A DNA stretch of 64,000 nt, from NCBI RefSeq assembly GCF_001691555.1, contig NZ_MAYN01000001.1, positions 124,001 to 188,000 on the forward strand, in the 5' to 3' direction. Of the stretch, positions 8,548 to 16,725 are shown one piece after another. Each line of letters starts with the position of its first letter. The stretch's first letter is position 1. The position numbers and the translations under genes are program-made. The notes under the pieces were generated by a model. It was given only the letters and a program-made list of their open reading frames with translations, was not told the origin of the DNA and did not search any database. Source of the stretch: Pantoea eucrina (lineage in GTDB: Bacteria > Pseudomonadota > Gammaproteobacteria > Enterobacterales > Enterobacteriaceae).

Positions 8548-8853
8548 TCAGTTGACACCCTGCAGCGGGTCAGGCCTGAAGCTGGTATTCAGAACCGAGA
8601 GGTCAACAGTTTTGGCTGCCCGCTCTAAATCATAAGCGGCCTGAATGCGCAGCCACATCGCAGGCGTACTGCCAATTACGGCCGATAATTTGATCGCCAT
8701 CTCTGGCGTTACCGCTGTTGCTCCCGATACTATTCTTGAAGCGGTGGAGGGAGCTACCGCTAAAGCACGCGCCAGCTCTCTGATACCGATCTCAAGATCT
8801 TCCATAATATCGGCAATGATTTCACTCGCGTGGGGGGGATTGTGCATAGTCAT
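8548..8853 (-). CDS. higA: HigA/VapI-type antitoxin-like DNA-binding protein, without a HigB partner
   Basis: A 101-residue XRE-family helix-turn-helix protein. The N-terminus HNPPHASEIIADIMEDLEI and the later block EMAIKLSAVIGSTPAMWLRIQAAYDLERA are hallmarks of HigA addiction-module antitoxins. Normally higB lies directly upstream; here only 133 bp separate the start from the fdhA stop codon and no toxin-size frame fits, nor is there one downstream. The gene is therefore an orphan antitoxin or has become a stand-alone regulator. A perfect 16-bp palindrome about 40 bp upstream is a likely autoregulatory operator. A second ATG two codons in is also possible. Confidence 0.82.
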   Translation of the reverse strand: MTMHNPPHASEIIADIMEDLEIGIRELARALAVAPSTASRIVSGATAVTPEMAIKLSAVIGSTPAMWLRIQAAYDLERAAKTVDLSVLNTSFRPDPLQGVN

Positions 8854-8986: not shown

Positions 8987-10180
8987 CTATTTTGCCGTCA
9001 GCATGCCATGCGGATCCAGCACATACTTCGCGGCTACGCCTGCGTCAAACTGAGCGTATCCCTGCGCCGCTTCTTCAAGCGGGATCACTTTGGCATTAAC
9101 GATTTTCGCAATCGGCAGACGATCGTGCAGGATGGCGTTCATCAGCTGCCGGTTGTAACGCACCACCGGCGTCTGGCCGGTATGGAACGACTGCGCTTTA
9201 GACCAGCCGAGGCCGAACTTCAGGCTCAGCGAGCCTTCCTGTGCTGATTTATCGTGCGCACCCGGATCTTCCGTCACATACAGGCCCGGAATACCGATAT
9301 TACCGGCAACGCGGGTGATCTCCATCATCTGATTCAGCACCACCGCCGGCTGCTCTTTACCGGAATGGCCGCGCGCTTCAAACCCAACGGCGTCAATAGC
9401 CGAATCCACTTCCGGCGTGCCGGTGATCTGGGCAACCATCTCTCCCAGCCGGTCATGCTGGCTCAGGTCGATCGGCACAAAGCCCATTTTCCTGGCGTGT
9501 TCCAGACGCTCTTTGTTGAAGTCGCCTACCATCACTACCGCCGCACCGAGGATCTGTGCTGATGCCGCTGCGGCCAGGCCGACCGGACCGGCGCCTGCGA
9601 CATAGGTGGTTGAGCCGACGCCCACACCCGCGTTGATCGCACCGTGAAAGCCGGTCGGTAAAATGTCTGACAGCATGGTCAGATCCAGAATTTTCGCCAG
9701 CGCCTGATCGCGATCGGGGAATTTCAGCAGATTGAAGTCCGCATACGGCACCATGACATATTTCGCCTGACCGCCTACCCAGCCGCCCATATCAACATAG
9801 CCGAACGCGCCGCCCGCCCGTGCCGGATTCACTGTCAGGCAGACACCGGTATCGAGTTCACGACAGCACCGGCAGCGTCCGCAGGCAACGTTAAACGGCA
9901 CTGAGACAATGTCACCGACGTTAAGCATCTCAACGTCAGCGCCTTTTTCGATAATTTCACCGGTAATTTCATGGCCGAGCACCATACCCGCAGGCGCGGT
10001 AGTGCGTCCGCGCACCATATGCTGATCTGAGCCGCAGATATTGGTGGAGAGCACTTTCAGGATCACGGCATGGCCAATCTTTTTTCCGGCCGGATTAGCA
10101 AAGACCGGATCGGCAATATCCTGTACCTCGACTTTACCTGGTCCCTGATACACCACACCGCGGTTGGAATTTGCGCCCAT
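8987..10180 (-). CDS. fdhA: glutathione-independent formaldehyde dehydrogenase
   Basis: Zinc- and NAD-dependent medium-chain dehydrogenase that oxidises formaldehyde to formate without glutathione. The 397-residue product closely follows the Pseudomonas putida enzyme (about 399 residues): catalytic-zinc ligands C49 and H70 in STNICGSDQHMV...GHEITGE, structural-zinc cysteines C100, C103, C106 and C114, and the NAD-binding GAGPVGLAAAA fold. It is a single gene with tandem dyads in its 370-bp leader (10224-10286). Formaldehyde on leaves may come from methanol oxidation or aromatic demethylation; that link is inference. Confidence 0.93.
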   Translation of the reverse strand: MGANSNRGVVYQGPGKVEVQDIADPVFANPAGKKIGHAVILKVLSTNICGSDQHMVRGRTTAPAGMVLGHEITGEIIEKGADVEMLNVGDIVSVPFNVACGRCRCCRELDTGVCLTVNPARAGGAFGYVDMGGWVGGQAKYVMVPYADFNLLKFPDRDQALAKILDLTMLSDILPTGFHGAINAGVGVGSTTYVAGAGPVGLAAAASAQILGAAVVMVGDFNKERLEHARKMGFVPIDLSQHDRLGEMVAQITGTPEVDSAIDAVGFEARGHSGKEQPAVVLNQMMEITRVAGNIGIPGLYVTEDPGAHDKSAQEGSLSLKFGLGWSKAQSFHTGQTPVVRYNRQLMNAILHDRLPIAKIVNAKVIPLEEAAQGYAQFDAGVAAKYVLDPHGMLTAK

Positions 10181-10202
10181 AAAATCTCCATTATATGTTG
10201 AT

Positions 10203-10286
10203 ATACGTATTAACTGCCGGACACTTACGAAACCGTAAGATAATAAAGAGTGATGACGCGTTAAATCTAATACGCAATACTGCGTA
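10203..10286. promoter_or_regulatory. cluster of three short dyads in the fdhA leader
   Basis: ATACGTAT at 10203-10210; CTTACG-N4-CGTAAG at 10224-10239; TACGCA-N4-TGCGTA at 10271-10286. All contain TACG/CGTA half sites and fall within 110 bp upstream of the fdhA start. They look like repeated operator half sites for one regulator, which is not identified. The rest of the 10181-10551 interval is AT-rich and without a gene. Confidence 0.35.
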
Positions 10287-10551
10287 ATTAAACAGGGAAT
10301 GGATTATGTGTGCCAGAGTTGTGACTGGCTTCATGAATGCAACAAGCAGTCATACATAAAAAATCAATAATTACATAAAGATACGGATATTAAATTTAAT
10401 ATACACGCGTTATGTCGCAAAATGGCAATACAATGTCGCACGGTGATACGCTATTAACTGAAACAGTTATTCTGGCAGGGAATTATCGTTATCTCTCCTG
10501 CCACTTTCTTTCTTATATTTGAATACAGGATAGCGTAATGAATGGCACGCA

Positions 10552-11364
10552 TTATTTACTGCGCGGCGGTTTCTCAAACCACGGCGTGATCAGTAAATGC
10601 GGGATAGCGAGCGCGGCCAGCGCGGCAAACAGTGAACGCACGCCGGCGGTATCGGCGGGATGCATCATAAACATGATCAGTACCGCCAGCAAAATAGCCG
10701 CCGTCAGCACCGGCCAGACGGCGCGCAGGTAGTCAGCGTAATGTCTTAACCCCAGCAAATCGCGCCGTTCGCGGGTCTGCGGTAGCGCATGCAGGATCAA
10801 AAAGCCCACGGAAAAGCCAACAAAAGGCGGCAGAAGCAGCAATGCCAGCGTTCCGGCCAGCAGACGCCTGTCGCGCCGTACTATGCCTGTCAGCAACAGC
10901 GCTGCGGCGGTAAAGCCGCCCGCTATAGCCAGACCCGCAGTCACGCTATCCGGCATGGCAGATGCCAGCCCGGCCTGATGTAAAATCGTTCTGTACGCTG
11001 TCAGATGCAGCGCGGCAGGCGTTGCAATCAGACTGATGCCGCGCGCCAGCCGTTCAGCCAGAGAGCCGTGCGGCGCATCTTCCAGCGCAAAATGGATGGC
11101 AGAGGCCAGCAGAAAGCCCGGCAGCGCGATTGCCGGATGCCAGTGCCACCAGAACAGGCACAGCACAATCACTACGCCGTAACCTGCCAGAAAAGCGCAC
11201 TGCTGTTCGCGCCTGACAACCTCAAGATCGCTTGCACCGTGCGCCATGCCGATAATGCCAATGGCCACGACGGCAAACAGCAGCTGAACCGGCAGCGGGC
11301 TGAAAGAGGCAGCCAGAGCTGCCCCCCAGAGTGTCAGCCAGCCGGTATGCTGCCGCAGGATCAT
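10552..11364 (-). CDS. blh: Brp/Blh-family beta-carotene 15,15'-dioxygenase (retinal-forming)
   Basis: Integral membrane oxygenase that cleaves beta-carotene into two retinal molecules. The 270-residue product is very hydrophobic and retains the conserved histidines of the family: GMAHGASD (H42), AIHFALED (H91), LHALPQTRERR (H192) and IPHLLI (H256). Its ATG overlaps the stop codon of the rhodopsin gene by 4 bp, so the two are translationally coupled. The pairing shows that the rhodopsin is meant to receive endogenous retinal. Beta-carotene synthesis genes are not in this window; Pantoea commonly carries crt genes elsewhere. Confidence 0.9.
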   Translation of the reverse strand: MILRQHTGWLTLWGAALAASFSPLPVQLLFAVVAIGIIGMAHGASDLEVVRREQQCAFLAGYGVVIVLCLFWWHWHPAIALPGFLLASAIHFALEDAPHGSLAERLARGISLIATPAALHLTAYRTILHQAGLASAMPDSVTAGLAIAGGFTAAALLLTGIVRRDRRLLAGTLALLLLPPFVGFSVGFLILHALPQTRERRDLLGLRHYADYLRAVWPVLTAAILLAVLIMFMMHPADTAGVRSLFAALAALAIPHLLITPWFEKPPRSK

Positions 11365-12074
11365 ACCCGCACGGCACCATCGCGTTTTGCATAGCGCAAC
11401 GCTTTTTCCAGATTCGCCGCCGCGTAGAAGGCGTAGAAAACTTTGGCGATAATATCGAGGATCAGAAATGCCCAGATTGAAGCAGGATCAGAAATGATCT
11501 TCAGCCCTTCCGGCCCGATCAGAAATACCACCGGATAGATAAACCAGACCACCGTCAGCAGCGCCACGTTTTTGTTGTAGGCGCCTGCCAGTGCGCTGCC
11601 CCGCTCCGCCGCCATCGTACGCAGCGGTCCCCACAGCAGATAGATCACGCCGAGGAATGCAGCGCAGGACCAGAGATACCAGACCCATTTTCCTGCTGCG
11701 GTTTCCGCCAGCGAGGAGACAAGACCGGTCACAATCATCATCACATCCAGCACGATAATAGCGGTCAGAAAGCCGCCCATCTCGCCTGGCTTGCCATGCT
11801 CATGAAAGGCCAGCATAACCAGCCCCGCCAGCAGAATCGGCGTGGTCACAGACCAGTCAGCATAACGCGCCATATAGACCGTCGTGCCGCTGTCCAGGGT
11901 GAGGTTGCCATAGCCAAACGCCATTGCCAGATACGCCGTAGCGGCAATAAAAGGCACTGATGCATGCATCAGGGTGTGGTGACGGGAGGGAAATGTTTTA
12001 CTGCCGGTGGCATAAATCGCCAGTGATGCAAGCGCCATCACTGAAAATCCAATGAGAAATGCAGTCTGATCCAT
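11361..12074 (-). CDS. microbial rhodopsin, probable light-driven proton pump with D-T-G triad
   Basis: Seven-helix retinal protein of 237 residues. Helix C reads RYADW-SVTTP: R70, D73 (equivalent of bacteriorhodopsin D85, proton acceptor) and T77 are kept, but the D96 proton-donor position is G84. Helix F has W177, Y180 and P181; helix G has D207 and the Schiff-base lysine K211 in LDIIAK. Of the two release-group glutamates, one is kept (E189) and the other is S199. L81 at the colour-tuning site suggests green absorption. Y133 at the bacteriorhodopsin W138 position leaves no room for a carotenoid antenna. The start has a good AGGAG ribosome site. Outward proton transport is inferred from the retained acceptor. 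Confidence 0.93.
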   Translation of the reverse strand: MDQTAFLIGFSVMALASLAIYATGSKTFPSRHHTLMHASVPFIAATAYLAMAFGYGNLTLDSGTTVYMARYADWSVTTPILLAGLVMLAFHEHGKPGEMGGFLTAIIVLDVMMIVTGLVSSLAETAAGKWVWYLWSCAAFLGVIYLLWGPLRTMAAERGSALAGAYNKNVALLTVVWFIYPVVFLIGPEGLKIISDPASIWAFLILDIIAKVFYAFYAAANLEKALRYAKRDGAVRV

Positions 12075-12496
12075 GTTGATTGCTCCTGTACAGCGGCGTC
12101 ATTATCACGCCCGCTGCGCTGCCATAGAAAATTAAAAGGTAATGTTATATTCCGGGAGAGAATACGCTTAAAGTATATGGCGCTATTTGTATTGTGCCAT
12201 TATTCAAAACCATAATGGTCTTCAGGAGAAAGAACTGGCAAAAAGTATCGTCCTCAGCGGGACATTATTTGTTTTTAATCAGGCATAAAATGTAATTTTT
12301 TATGTAAAGAAGAGTATGTAAAATAGCCATTCCCGGTTTAATGAAACAGAAAGTTAATTAATTAACCTTAAAATCAATAAGATAAATAGCGGAGACTGCA
12401 CCAGCCTGATGTAGTGCACAAAAGGGATTGATGCAGGAAATTTATTTACCTGCATCTCTGATTTTCATTTTCTGCTATCAAAGCAATAACGCTGCT
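12075..12496. promoter_or_regulatory. AT-rich leader of the rhodopsin operon with a dyad
   Basis: Non-coding interval between the DCC-family gene and the rhodopsin gene. A 7-bp dyad, CCATTAT and ATAATGG separated by 8 bases (12197-12218), lies about 125 bp upstream of the rhodopsin start and could bind a dimeric regulator. Two copies of TATGTAAA are seen near 12301 and 12315. No promoter could be assigned with confidence and no gene is visible. Confidence 0.35.
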
Positions 12497-12972: not shown

Positions 12973-15234
12973 TTAATCGAGCAACTTCTCCAGGGAAAGC
13001 GGCAGATCGCGAATGCGCTTGCCGGTTGCGTGATAAACAGCATTACTGATAGCCGCAGCCATACCCACAATACCCAGCTCGCCCACGGCTTTTCCGCCCA
13101 TCAGCGTGGCGTGATGATCCGGCTCACCCACGTCGATAGTGATAATTTCCGGTACGTCAGCGTTAACCGCAATCAGATAATCGGCGAGATTATTGTTCAC
13201 GATGCGGGCGTTACGCGGATCAACCGCCCCGCCCTCCAGCAGCGCCTGACCGAGCCCCATCACCATTCCGCCAATCCACTGGCTGCGCGCCAGTTTCGGA
13301 TTATAAAGCCGTCCGCTGTCAAAGGCGGACACCATACGCCTGACGCGCACCGTACCGAAATCTTCATCCACGCGCACTTCAACAAACTGCGCACCCCAGC
13401 TGTGTGAAGAAAACTCTTCCGGTGTGGTCATCCGCGACATCGAGTGCACCGCTTTATCCCGCTCTTCTGCGCTTTCACCCGGCTTAAAGGTGCCGTCCGT
13501 TACCGCCAGCGTCTCTTCACCGCTCAGCCGCACCAGATCGCCCAGCGACACCGCACGCTCCGGCTGACCTTTCAGGCACACGCCTCCCGCGCAGAGCGTC
13601 AGCTGTTCAGCGTCGGTCTGCGGGAACGGCGCATCTGAAGAAGCGCCTGCCAGCGCGTAGAGCCGGTCACGCAGCGCCACCGCCGTCTTATGCACGGCAC
13701 CGGTCAGGTTGCCGGCCAGCTGCGAACCGCCCGCCACGCCGGCACGCGGCAGCCGGGTATCACCCAGTTCAACTTTAATGCGGGTAGAGTCAAGACAGAG
13801 CACTTCTGCCGCAGTCTGCGCCAGAATGGTGTAGGTTCCGGTGCCGATATCAGCACCTGCACTCTGCACCACCAGCTCACCCTGACTGTTGAGGATCAGG
13901 CGCGCCTCAGCCGGGGCTTTGTTTACCGGATAGGTTGCCGTTGCCATGCCCCAGCCAATCAGCTCGCGGCCTTCGCGCATTGAGCGCGGTGCCATAGTGC
14001 GATCTTTCCAGCCGAACGCTTCAGCCGCTGCGCTGTAAGCCTCTTTCAGACGACGCGTACTCCACGGCAGATTTTCCTGCGGATCCTGTTCTGCATAGTT
14101 GCGCAGGCGCAGCTCCAGCGGATCGATACCCAGCGCGTAAGCCATCTCATCCATCGCCACCTCCAGCCCGAACGCGCTCGGGTTCTCACCGGGTGCACGC
14201 ATCCAGCCCGGCGTGACGGTATTGATAGCGGCAACGTAATGACGCGAATAGACATTCGGCACATCATAGATACGCCCGGTGACTTTGTTGGTGCCTTCGG
14301 CGAACGTGTCTATGAGTGAGGTATCGCTTAAACCTTCATGCAGGATGGCCAGTAGTTTCCCGTCCTGTGCAGCGCCCATCTCTATAGTCTGCTGCGTAGC
14401 CGGACGACCGCCAAGTCCGGTAAAGGTCTGCGGACGCGACAGCGCCACTTTCACCGGACGCGTCAGCGCGCGCGAGGCAACGCAGGCCAGCGCTACATGG
14501 GTGTAGGGCACGGGTTTAGATCCAAAGCCGCCGCCAACATAGGGTGAAATTACCCTAACCTGCTGCTGTTCGATACCCAGCCACTCGGCTATTTCAGTCT
14601 GTGCTCCCATGACCCACTGGCTTGGCTCCCATACCGTGAGCGCATTATCCTGCCATGATGCGATGCAGGCATGCGGTTCCATCGGCATGTTGTATTCACG
14701 CGGTGTGGCGTAGCAGCTTTTAATTTTCACTTCTGCCTGCGCCATCGCCTGCTGCGCATTGCCCATTTCAACAGTGGCGCTCTCCTGGCGCTCCGCTGCC
14801 GGATCATCCATCCAGACCAACGGCTTCTCTTCCTCATAGCGCACTTTTACCAGGCTGGCAGCCCAGGTCGCCTGTTCAAACGTTTCTGCCACCACCAGCC
14901 CGATGTTCTGGCCGTTATGAATGATTTTGTCATCCTGCAGCGGTGTATAGGTGGACTGCGCCGCGCCGCCGTCAGCAATGGCGGTAGGCTTGTTGATCTT
15001 CAGCGGATTCAGATGGGTATAAATCGCGACAACGCCAGGCTGCCGTTCCGCTTCTGCGGTGTCAATATCTGTCATCCGGCCGCTGGCAATAGTGGACTGC
15101 ACCACCACGCCATACAGCATATTCTCAGGCTGATATTCCGCTGCATAGCGGGCGGCGCCGGTGACTTTCACCACGCCATCGCCCCGATCGCGTCCGGCAC
15201 CGAGTGCCTGATAGTTCTGTTCCTGCTTATCCAT
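12973..15234 (-). CDS. paoC: molybdopterin-binding large subunit of a PaoABC-like aldehyde oxidoreductase
   Basis: Xanthine-oxidase-family large subunit, 753 residues from the ATG at 15234, which has a GGGGAC ribosome site; a longer frame to 15285 overlaps the upstream gene and is not preferred. Recognisable blocks are GAGRDRGDGVVKVTGAARYAAE (start of the domain), SPYVGGGFGSK, the substrate-pocket arginine in GWMRAPGENP and the catalytic glutamate E719 in VGELGIVG. E. coli PaoC (732 residues) oxidises aromatic aldehydes with a molybdopterin cytosine dinucleotide cofactor. Order and size match paoABC. The substrate here is inferred, not shown. Confidence 0.88.
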   Translation of the reverse strand: MDKQEQNYQALGAGRDRGDGVVKVTGAARYAAEYQPENMLYGVVVQSTIASGRMTDIDTAEAERQPGVVAIYTHLNPLKINKPTAIADGGAAQSTYTPLQDDKIIHNGQNIGLVVAETFEQATWAASLVKVRYEEEKPLVWMDDPAAERQESATVEMGNAQQAMAQAEVKIKSCYATPREYNMPMEPHACIASWQDNALTVWEPSQWVMGAQTEIAEWLGIEQQQVRVISPYVGGGFGSKPVPYTHVALACVASRALTRPVKVALSRPQTFTGLGGRPATQQTIEMGAAQDGKLLAILHEGLSDTSLIDTFAEGTNKVTGRIYDVPNVYSRHYVAAINTVTPGWMRAPGENPSAFGLEVAMDEMAYALGIDPLELRLRNYAEQDPQENLPWSTRRLKEAYSAAAEAFGWKDRTMAPRSMREGRELIGWGMATATYPVNKAPAEARLILNSQGELVVQSAGADIGTGTYTILAQTAAEVLCLDSTRIKVELGDTRLPRAGVAGGSQLAGNLTGAVHKTAVALRDRLYALAGASSDAPFPQTDAEQLTLCAGGVCLKGQPERAVSLGDLVRLSGEETLAVTDGTFKPGESAEERDKAVHSMSRMTTPEEFSSHSWGAQFVEVRVDEDFGTVRVRRMVSAFDSGRLYNPKLARSQWIGGMVMGLGQALLEGGAVDPRNARIVNNNLADYLIAVNADVPEIITIDVGEPDHHATLMGGKAVGELGIVGMAAAISNAVYHATGKRIRDLPLSLEKLLD

Positions 15235-15247
15235 AAAATGTCCCCGG

Positions 15248-16240
15248 TTACGCCTTGCCGCCAGCCTGAAGTAGTGCACGTGCAATCACGCGCGGTGTCA
15301 GCACTTTTTTATGCTGATTCTGCGGCAGGGTTTTCGCATCCTGCACAATACGCTCTGCGGCACGCCGCAGCGTTTGTTCATCAAACGGCTGTCCGCGCAG
15401 CGCCCCTTCCACCTGCTGTGCCCGCCAGGGCTTCGTCGCCACGCCGCCCACGGCAATGCGCACGTCGCGGATCCGGTCACCCTCCAGCTCAATGCCGACG
15501 GCGGCGCTGGCAGCCGCAAATTCATACGAGCTGCGATCGCGCACCTTCAGGTAATGCGAATGTTTCAGCGCGGCGGTAAGCGGCAGTTCCACCGCGATGA
15601 TCATTTCATCGCTGGCGAGATCGTGCTCCAGATGGGGCGTATCGCCGGGCAGGAGATAGAACTGGTCAATCGGAATGCGACGCTCGCGCTGCGCAGCATT
15701 GCGCACGATGACCACGGCATCAAAAGCGGTCAGTGCAACAGCCAGGTCGCCCGGATAAACCGCAATACAGCTGTCACTGGTACCCAGAATAGCGTGGTTG
15801 CCGTTGATGCCCTCGAGCGCGGCACAGCCCGATCCCGGATTGCGCTTGTTACAGGCGCTGAACGTATGCGGATCGCGGAAATAAACGCAGCGGGTACGCT
15901 GCAGCAGATTGCCGCCAATCGTAGCCATGTTCCGCAGCTGCGGCGACGCCGCCTGCCACAGACTGTGATAAATCGCCGGCGCATCACGCTGACACTCTGC
16001 ATGATGCTCCAGTTCGCTCATGCGCGTCAGCGCGCCGATACGCAGGCTGTCATGGCTGAACGCAATTTCACGCATCTCCTGCAGGCCGCTGATATCCACC
16101 AGCGCAGCCGGCTGCTCAACGTCGCATTTCATTAAATCTATCTGCGTGGTGCCACCCGCCAGAAACCGGCTGCTGGCATCCTTCTTCTGCTGCAGCGCCT
16201 GTTCCGGGCTGCTCGCCGCAAGGTAGTCAAACGGATTCAT
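15248..16240 (-). CDS. paoB: FAD- and [4Fe-4S]-binding middle subunit, PaoB-like
   Basis: The 330-residue product belongs to the FAD-binding CO-dehydrogenase medium-subunit family. It has FLAGGTTQIDLMK and RNMATIGGNLLQRTRC flavin-binding blocks. Cysteines C118, C130, C139 and C158 lie in an insertion with PGSGCAALEG, as in E. coli PaoB, where the extra cluster is [4Fe-4S]; this supports the PaoB type rather than plain xanthine dehydrogenase. The ATG overlaps the paoA-like stop (ATGA), with GGAGG close upstream. It passes electrons from the iron-sulfur subunit chain to FAD. Confidence 0.88.
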   Translation of the reverse strand: MNPFDYLAASSPEQALQQKKDASSRFLAGGTTQIDLMKCDVEQPAALVDISGLQEMREIAFSHDSLRIGALTRMSELEHHAECQRDAPAIYHSLWQAASPQLRNMATIGGNLLQRTRCVYFRDPHTFSACNKRNPGSGCAALEGINGNHAILGTSDSCIAVYPGDLAVALTAFDAVVIVRNAAQRERRIPIDQFYLLPGDTPHLEHDLASDEMIIAVELPLTAALKHSHYLKVRDRSSYEFAAASAAVGIELEGDRIRDVRIAVGGVATKPWRAQQVEGALRGQPFDEQTLRRAAERIVQDAKTLPQNQHKKVLTPRVIARALLQAGGKA

Positions 16241-16725
16241 CGCGCCTCCGAACTGAGATCGGCGGCGGCCTGCTGAATGGCGTCGACGATATTAGGGTAA
16301 GCTCCGCAGCGACAAAGATTACCGCTCATATATTCACGGATCTCATCGGCAGAACCGGCATGCCCCTCCGCAATGCAGGCGGCGGCAGACATGATCTGTC
16401 CCGGCGTGCAGTAGCCGCACTGGAAAGCATCATGTTCCAGAAAACGCGCCTGAACCGGATGAAGCGTGCCATCAGGACGCGCCAGCCCCTCAATAGTAGT
16501 GACCTGCTGTCCGTTAGCCTGAACGGCCAGCGTCAGGCAGCTCAGAACCCGCTTGCCATTAATATGAACGGTGCAGGCGCCACACTGGCCCTGGTCACAG
16601 CCCTTTTTTGTACCGGTCAGCGTCAGGTGTTCACGCAGCGCGTCCAGCAGCGTCACGCGCGGGTCTACGCTGAGGTCAATGGGCTGCCCATTGACCTCGA
16701 GATGCAGTTGTATGTTTTCTGACAT
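16237..16725 (-). CDS. paoA: [2Fe-2S] small subunit, PaoA-like, no export signal
   Basis: The 162-residue electron-transfer subunit carries both [2Fe-2S] clusters: plant-type ferredoxin cysteines C43, C48, C51 and C63, and the second set C103, C106, C138 and C140. E. coli PaoA is longer (229 residues) because of a Tat signal; here the protein starts directly at the ferredoxin domain (MSENIQLHLEVNG), so the complex should be cytoplasmic. First gene of the three-gene operon, preceded by GGAAATGAG. Confidence 0.9.
   Translation of the reverse strand: MSENIQLHLEVNGQPIDLSVDPRVTLLDALREHLTLTGTKKGCDQGQCGACTVHINGKRVLSCLTLAVQANGQQVTTIEGLARPDGTLHPVQARFLEHDAFQCGYCTPGQIMSAAACIAEGHAGSADEIREYMSGNLCRCGAYPNIVDAIQQAAADLSSEAR

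Follow-up and report, generated by a model that had tools for sequence, protein, structure and literature searches.

A mirror proteorhodopsin operon of Pantoea eucrina and a histidine-to-glutamine change in its Blh-family enzyme

We analysed a two-gene operon of Pantoea eucrina that encodes a rhodopsin and a Brp/Blh-family enzyme (Blh). The new point is a change from histidine to glutamine at the position of the fourth catalytic histidine in the partner enzyme of the mirror proteorhodopsins; the rhodopsin is of a known kind, and the pairing of the two genes has been reported before. Among 93 distinct Blh proteins, glutamine was found at this position in all 47 that are encoded beside a mirror-type rhodopsin, i.e. 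a rhodopsin of the group defined by H37, and in 0/46 elsewhere. We consider it likely that the two genes form a phototrophy operon on a large Pantoea plasmid, in which a mirror proteorhodopsin is combined with a Blh that makes retinal from beta-carotene supplied by crt genes.

The operon and the fourth histidine of Blh

The window, that is, the whole stretch of 64,000 nucleotides analysed here, spans positions 124001-188000 of contig C1 and carries both genes in intact form (Table 1). Both open reading frames and their overlap of 4 bp were recovered at the coordinates given in the first-pass annotation. Its assignment of the host to the enterobacteria is borne out as well (Erwiniaceae), with Pantoea eucrina as the nearest named species; identities to strain LMG 5346 are 99.6% for the rhodopsin and 97.0% for Blh. 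The ATGA overlap suggests that the translation of rhodopsin and blh may be coupled, and the same junction is present in 18 of the 47 distinct mirror-type operons. A promoter scan returned three sigma-70-like sites where 2.8 were expected, and we claim no promoter. Terminator-like sites numbered 7 compared to 2.8 expected; a single one of these, a weak site at 10286-10271 on the reverse strand, is located downstream of blh.

Table 1. Features of the operon and of the block that contains it, in window coordinates.
Feature	Position	Strand	Basis or remark
Rhodopsin, mirror-proteorhodopsin clade, DTG type, 237 aa, intact	11361..12074	(-)	PF01036, solved-chain matches, residues, tree
Rhodopsin codon H37	11966-11964	(-)	
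Rhodopsin codon D73	11858-11856	(-)	
Rhodopsin codon G84	11825-11823	(-)	
Rhodopsin codon K211	11444-11442	(-)	
Brp/Blh-family enzyme, 270 aa, intact	10552..11364	(-)	PF15461, alignments
Blh active-site residues H42, H91, H192, Q196, H256	Q196 codon 10779-10777	(-)	
ATGA overlap, rhodopsin stop/blh start	11361..11364	(-)	read from sequence
Shine-Dalgarno-like AGGAG, 8 bases 5' of rhodopsin ATG	12083..12087	(-)	read from sequence
Block missing in three plasmid records of the P. eucrina type	10052..12412		IS1-bearing stretch in its place

The rhodopsin and Blh genes are adjacent in Pantoea, Rosenbergiella, Sphingomonas and a gammaproteobacterial family (f12). Both genes are under purifying selection: in six comparisons per gene, Nei-Gojobori dN/dS ratios against the window genes range from 0.14 to 0.22 for Blh and from 0.03 to 0.11 for the rhodopsin. 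These values are rough, as dS exceeds 1 in most of the distant comparisons. Because the pair recurs across these groups and both genes are under purifying selection, the pairing is not due to chance. Pairs of a DTG/DTS rhodopsin and a carotene dioxygenase already appear in the genome announcement of Sphingomonas aerolata (PMC9584328), where the gene pairing is as in the window operon and the species differs.

The window Blh matches PF15461 (BCD) with an E-value of 8.4e-22 and a score of 78.5 bits, compared to a curated cut-off of 28, and its match to TIGR03753 (NCBIfam) lies just under the cut-off (92.3 vs 95.25 bits). It shares the residues H42, D46, H91, H192 and H256, as well as the setting in a rhodopsin operon, with the PF15461/TIGR03753 family that includes the marine Blh 66A03. 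According to a review (PMC9227343, citing Kim 2009), changing His21, His78, His188 or His192 of 66A03 to Ala leaves less than 5% activity. The first three of these catalytic histidines are kept in the window Blh, whereas Gln196 stands at the place of the fourth, His192 of 66A03; in the alignment, the window protein has HALPQ where its relatives have HSxxH. This correspondence is based on the H-xxx-H spacing in the relatives. The neighbours of the glutamine differ too, with mostly Ala193, Pro195 and Thr197 in the window-type proteins and Ser, Arg/Lys and a hydrophobic residue such as Leu in the HSxxH relatives. An additional difference at residue 95 vanished in a larger alignment and was dropped.

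The sample of Blh proteins was drawn from the genus Pantoea, the phylum, the genus Sphingomonas (to which locus L011 belongs), family f12 and the class of L011, all within the Pseudomonadota; identical proteins were counted once, and the named and unnamed sources overlap. Eight of the 47 glutamine cases come from stretches that were added after the pattern had been stated, and all of them fitted. In the earlier set of 82 sequences, glutamine was present in 39/39 Blh proteins beside mirror-type rhodopsins, with His in 42 others and Ala in one. Of the 46 proteins in the remainder of the final sample, 43 carry His, two Ala and one Val. The His proteins comprise 21 beside a DTE rhodopsin (one of which, L127, is only a fragment, its gene being interrupted by an internal stop), 2 beside a DTS rhodopsin that lacks H37 and 20 without a rhodopsin in a short locus. 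Five loci were left out of the tally, namely L129 and L131 (no Blh match), L130 (broken pieces) and L039 and L040 (partial matches below the threshold).

Three Blh proteins have neither His nor Gln. Ala is found in L117, beside a rhodopsin with a Thr acceptor (TTG), and in L059, where Blh lies behind an NDQ-type rhodopsin on the same strand and a DTA rhodopsin is present on the opposite strand; this locus was classed as DTA by score, although the NDQ-type rhodopsin precedes its Blh. Val is found in L128, behind an NTQ-type rhodopsin. Thus, the fourth histidine is not constant outside the mirror clade and has been lost there in other forms. All three loci come from the sample of the genus Sphingomonas. 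The other active-site residues do not vary: H192 and H256 are invariant in 93/93 Blh proteins, and H42, D46 and H91 are invariant in the 92/92 that cover them. In a quick tree of the earlier 82 sequences, which has long branches among the His rows, the Gln-type proteins form one side of a branch (SH-aLRT 100), and a single origin of the glutamine form therefore suffices. Scanning viral contigs with a canonical Blh yielded no relative, and searching plasmids with the Ala-type Blh of L059 yielded no match.

Two sequence queries detected no relative of Blh among solved chains. An AlphaFold2 model of Blh, built from 12 sequences, has a mean pLDDT of 82.5. Foldseek returned no PDB match for this model at an E-value of 0.001 or better. 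In a second structural comparison, the best Z was 5.2 over 77 residues with an rmsd of 4.1, and no row stands out. Neither comparison is a sign of a new fold. Among the open-licence articles of PubMed Central, we found no paper on the histidine-to-glutamine change in the Blh of the mirror clade, and no pertinent paper on Blh active sites or on Blh together with the rhodopsins of Pantoea or Methylobacterium.

Carotenoid supply and retinal formation

The genes crtE, crtX, crtY, crtI and crtB, with crtZ on the other strand, are located at C1:259237-265480, on the contig that carries the operon (C1, 424,083 bases; assembly 3.94 Mb) and some 123 kb away from it. Hence the four genes crtE, crtB, crtI and crtY, which the first-pass annotation had named for a check, are all present, and the lack of a beta-carotene pathway that would have counted against its reading does not apply; crtB and crtY were also detected in the genome search. 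The cluster is 91.7% identical to the plasmid of P. eucrina XL123 over 6,244 bases, the gene names agree with the annotation there, and the gene content is that of the crtE-X-Y-I-B/crtZ clusters of large Pantoea plasmids. No idi or fni was found among the open reading frames of the cluster, as in several of the Pantoea plasmids listed.

A rhodopsin of the mirror type occurs in 13 of 61 Pantoea genomes, and a match to PF00494 (phytoene synthase) in 54 of 61. The latter is found in 12/13 rhodopsin carriers compared to 42/48 non-carriers; the rhodopsin is thus not specially tied to carotenoid genes in Pantoea. The carrier that has no PF00494 match (G042) is a 99% complete genome with the rhodopsin-Blh operon present.

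In the proposed mechanism, Blh would split beta-carotene from the crt cluster to yield retinal. Because the fourth catalytic histidine is a glutamine, metal binding would have to use Gln196 or H256 beside H42, H91 and H192, and on the simplest reading one of these two, the glutamine or the invariant histidine, would be the fourth ligand. We conclude that the window Blh probably still makes retinal, since selection on the gene is purifying and the genome contains no other match to PF15461. For the Blh proteins of mirror operons in general, we tentatively propose a distinct class of working oxygenases, retinal-forming or cleaving differently, whose metal centre does without the fourth histidine. 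The glutamine form would have arisen once and travelled with the clade, with Gln or H256 serving as ligand or with a changed substrate or product.

We regard it as unlikely that this Blh no longer makes retinal and instead serves in binding or delivery, or converts a different carotenoid, e.g. a hydroxylated one, with the pump relying on retinal made by other organisms or by another enzyme. The glutamine itself speaks for such a loss, as a residue that is needed in the marine homologue (PMC9227343) is replaced throughout the mirror-type operons. Furthermore, hydroxylated and glycosylated carotenoids are expected because the crt cluster includes crtZ and crtX, and G042 carries the rhodopsin without a PF00494 match. 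That the window genome has no second BCD match would argue for retinal formation by Blh; however, one bacterium lacking blh reportedly produces retinal by an unknown route (PMC7734400), so that a single Blh in the genome proves little. A loss of function is also opposed by the invariance of the other active-site residues across the sample and by the gene order, as blh adjoins the rhodopsin in all 47 operons while being kept under purifying selection.

The rhodopsin as a member of the mirror clade

The rhodopsin matches PF01036 (Pfam) above the curated cut-off (E 8.1e-46). Its nearest solved chains are SpaR (8ANQ, E 1.4e-111) and PspR (7W74, E 8.2e-72), to which it can be aligned at residues 1-228 and 2-223, respectively. 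The alignment confirms all key residues listed in the first-pass annotation, D73, T77, G84, Y133, S199, D207 and K211, to which we add H32, H33, H37, R70, E92, S121, E189 and D196. D73, T77 and G84 occupy the positions of D85, T89 and D96 in BR and constitute the DTG motif. The published mirror proteorhodopsin clade contains 103 DTG, DTS or DTT rhodopsins and is described as marked by H32, H33, S121 and S199 (PMC10154332). The window rhodopsin has all the mirror marks of the cytoplasmic side (H32, H33 and H37) and both of the extracellular side (S121 and S199); E189, too, agrees with the description of the clade. In a quick tree search of 70 rows, with MpR not among them, a branch with an SH-aLRT of 99 sets apart 41 rows, namely the window protein, SpaR, PspR and a further 38 distinct rhodopsins of the mirror type.

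Judged by residues and tree, the window rhodopsin is a DTG member of this clade and not a new kind of rhodopsin. The proposals that it is of the pump type and that it belongs to a studied D-T-G clade both stand, as the tree places it with measured pumps, and the clade corresponds to the mirror proteorhodopsins. Serine at position 199, which had been noted in place of a release glutamate, is indeed present, yet it is a mark of the clade; given that the protein carries every clade mark and clusters with SpaR and PspR, neither S199 nor G84 is unusual for a mirror proteorhodopsin. The motif class (DTG/DTS/DTT) as well as H33 and H37 are common to the window protein, SpaR, PspR and PaR of Pantoea ananatis. 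SpaR also has S199 and Y133, whereas it carries S84 in place of G84; the remaining differences are sequence drift only. The homologues of P. putida and P. ananatis were reported to pump (Harris 2015, cited in PMC10154332), and the window rhodopsin shares 83% identity with the P. ananatis rhodopsin of our sample. The clade and a Pantoea member are already in print, and the rhodopsin adds one more species to the clade.

Two further positions were inspected. Despite its description as highly conserved, H32 is replaced by N, P or G in 14 of the 47 distinct operons grouped by H37; these loci (L015, L016, L028, L029, L037 and L087-L095) are from Rosenbergiella, two Pantoea genomes and family f12. 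Y133 lies at the antenna position, where most of the DTE rhodopsins sampled have Gly. Gly at the position of BR W138 leaves room for a carotenoid antenna. A xanthorhodopsin-type carotenoid antenna was rejected, with Tyr in place of Gly at this position, in agreement with the earlier argument from Y133.

For the pump, we propose that light would isomerise the retinal on K211, that the Schiff-base proton would move to D73 and that a proton would be released outwards. The Schiff base would then be reprotonated from the cytoplasm, via H37 below about pH 6 and, at higher pH, by way of a cytoplasmic cavity that is open. The pump is therefore expected to be mainly acid-active and slow. In the published account of the clade, H37, at the position of BR T46, is proposed to donate the proton under acid conditions, and above about pH 6 the proton would come from the bulk; SpaR is reported there to pump outwards at acid pH and to be blocked by millimolar zinc (PMC10154332). 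In the window rhodopsin, H37 has probably taken over the role of the carboxylate donor, and we infer pumping, its direction and its pH range from SpaR, PspR and PaR. The loss of the donor had been read as predicting a slow photocycle with external reprotonation. The part that stands is that G84 provides no carboxylate donor; a simple loss does not, as H37 is present as the proposed donor at acid pH.

Slow photocycles are common in sensors. Together with the dispensability of the operon described below, this would suit a light sensor without net pumping, which we nevertheless consider very improbable: no transducer was found among the neighbouring proteins scanned, the clade contains measured pumps, and the acceptor and the counter-ion are retained, so that the sensor was set aside on residues, neighbours and tree. 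The least probable alternative is that light drives the transport of Na+/Li+, as reported for MpR of Methylobacterium populi, another DTG rhodopsin. MpR-like proteins mostly have acids at the SpaR-equivalent positions 30, 31 and 33 and lack S121 and S199 (PMC10154332), whereas the window protein has S30, R31, H33, S121 and S199 and clusters with SpaR and PspR (in the tree without an MpR sequence). The Na+/Li+ pump was set aside on these residues and the tree.

Plasmid setting and biological meaning

Next to the operon, 24.5 kb of window sequence align with 90.9% identity over 97% to plasmids of P. eucrina XL123 and Pantoea sp. PSNIH1. Due to this alignment, contig C1 is most likely a large Pantoea plasmid, of the kind named LPP-1. 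These two plasmids and the record CP060162.1, labelled Acinetobacter venetianus (together loci L114, L115 and L116, the last being CP060162.1), lack window positions 10052-12412, a block that comprises the operon in full and the initial codons of a dehydrogenase reading frame at 8987-10180. The junction is an identical 880 bases in all three; the transposase annotated in XL123 is of the IS1 type, and PSNIH1 likewise has a transposase annotation. No remnants of the rhodopsin or Blh were detected by tblastn in the corresponding stretches of the three records, and the plasmid matches obtained with the operon include none of the three. P. eucrina LMG 5346 carries the operon, which adjoins the same flank there.

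A single deletion in the common ancestor of the three records would explain the absence of the block. Since these P. eucrina-type records share an IS1-marked deletion of the operon, it is dispensable under at least some conditions. CP060162.1 is P. eucrina-like both here and in the crt cluster, and its label may be wrong or the assembly mixed. In the surroundings of the operon, the window encodes a helix-turn-helix protein (8548-8853), whose counterpart on a related plasmid is named as a HigA-type antitoxin beside a RelE/ParE toxin. Upstream of the operon (12973-16725), it contains reading frames whose counterparts on P. eucrina plasmids are annotated as subunits of the xanthine-dehydrogenase type.

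The linked change in Blh matters more than the rhodopsin itself. The picture of four catalytic histidines in Blh appears to rest on Ala changes in one marine enzyme, as reviewed in PMC9227343. In the mirror operons sampled here, the fourth histidine is replaced throughout while the gene is kept under selection, which bears on the need for that histidine. The main text of PMC10154332, which describes the clade, has no mention of Blh, carotenoid, carotene, oxygenase or operon. The P. eucrina-type strains with and without the operon constitute a natural comparison. A further question touched by the change is whether these bacteria, which are associated with plants and the clinic, produce their own retinal. 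If the glutamine form is a working class of enzymes, either the four-histidine picture of the Blh active site would be overturned, or the supply of the chromophore to this clade of pumps would be a modified one.
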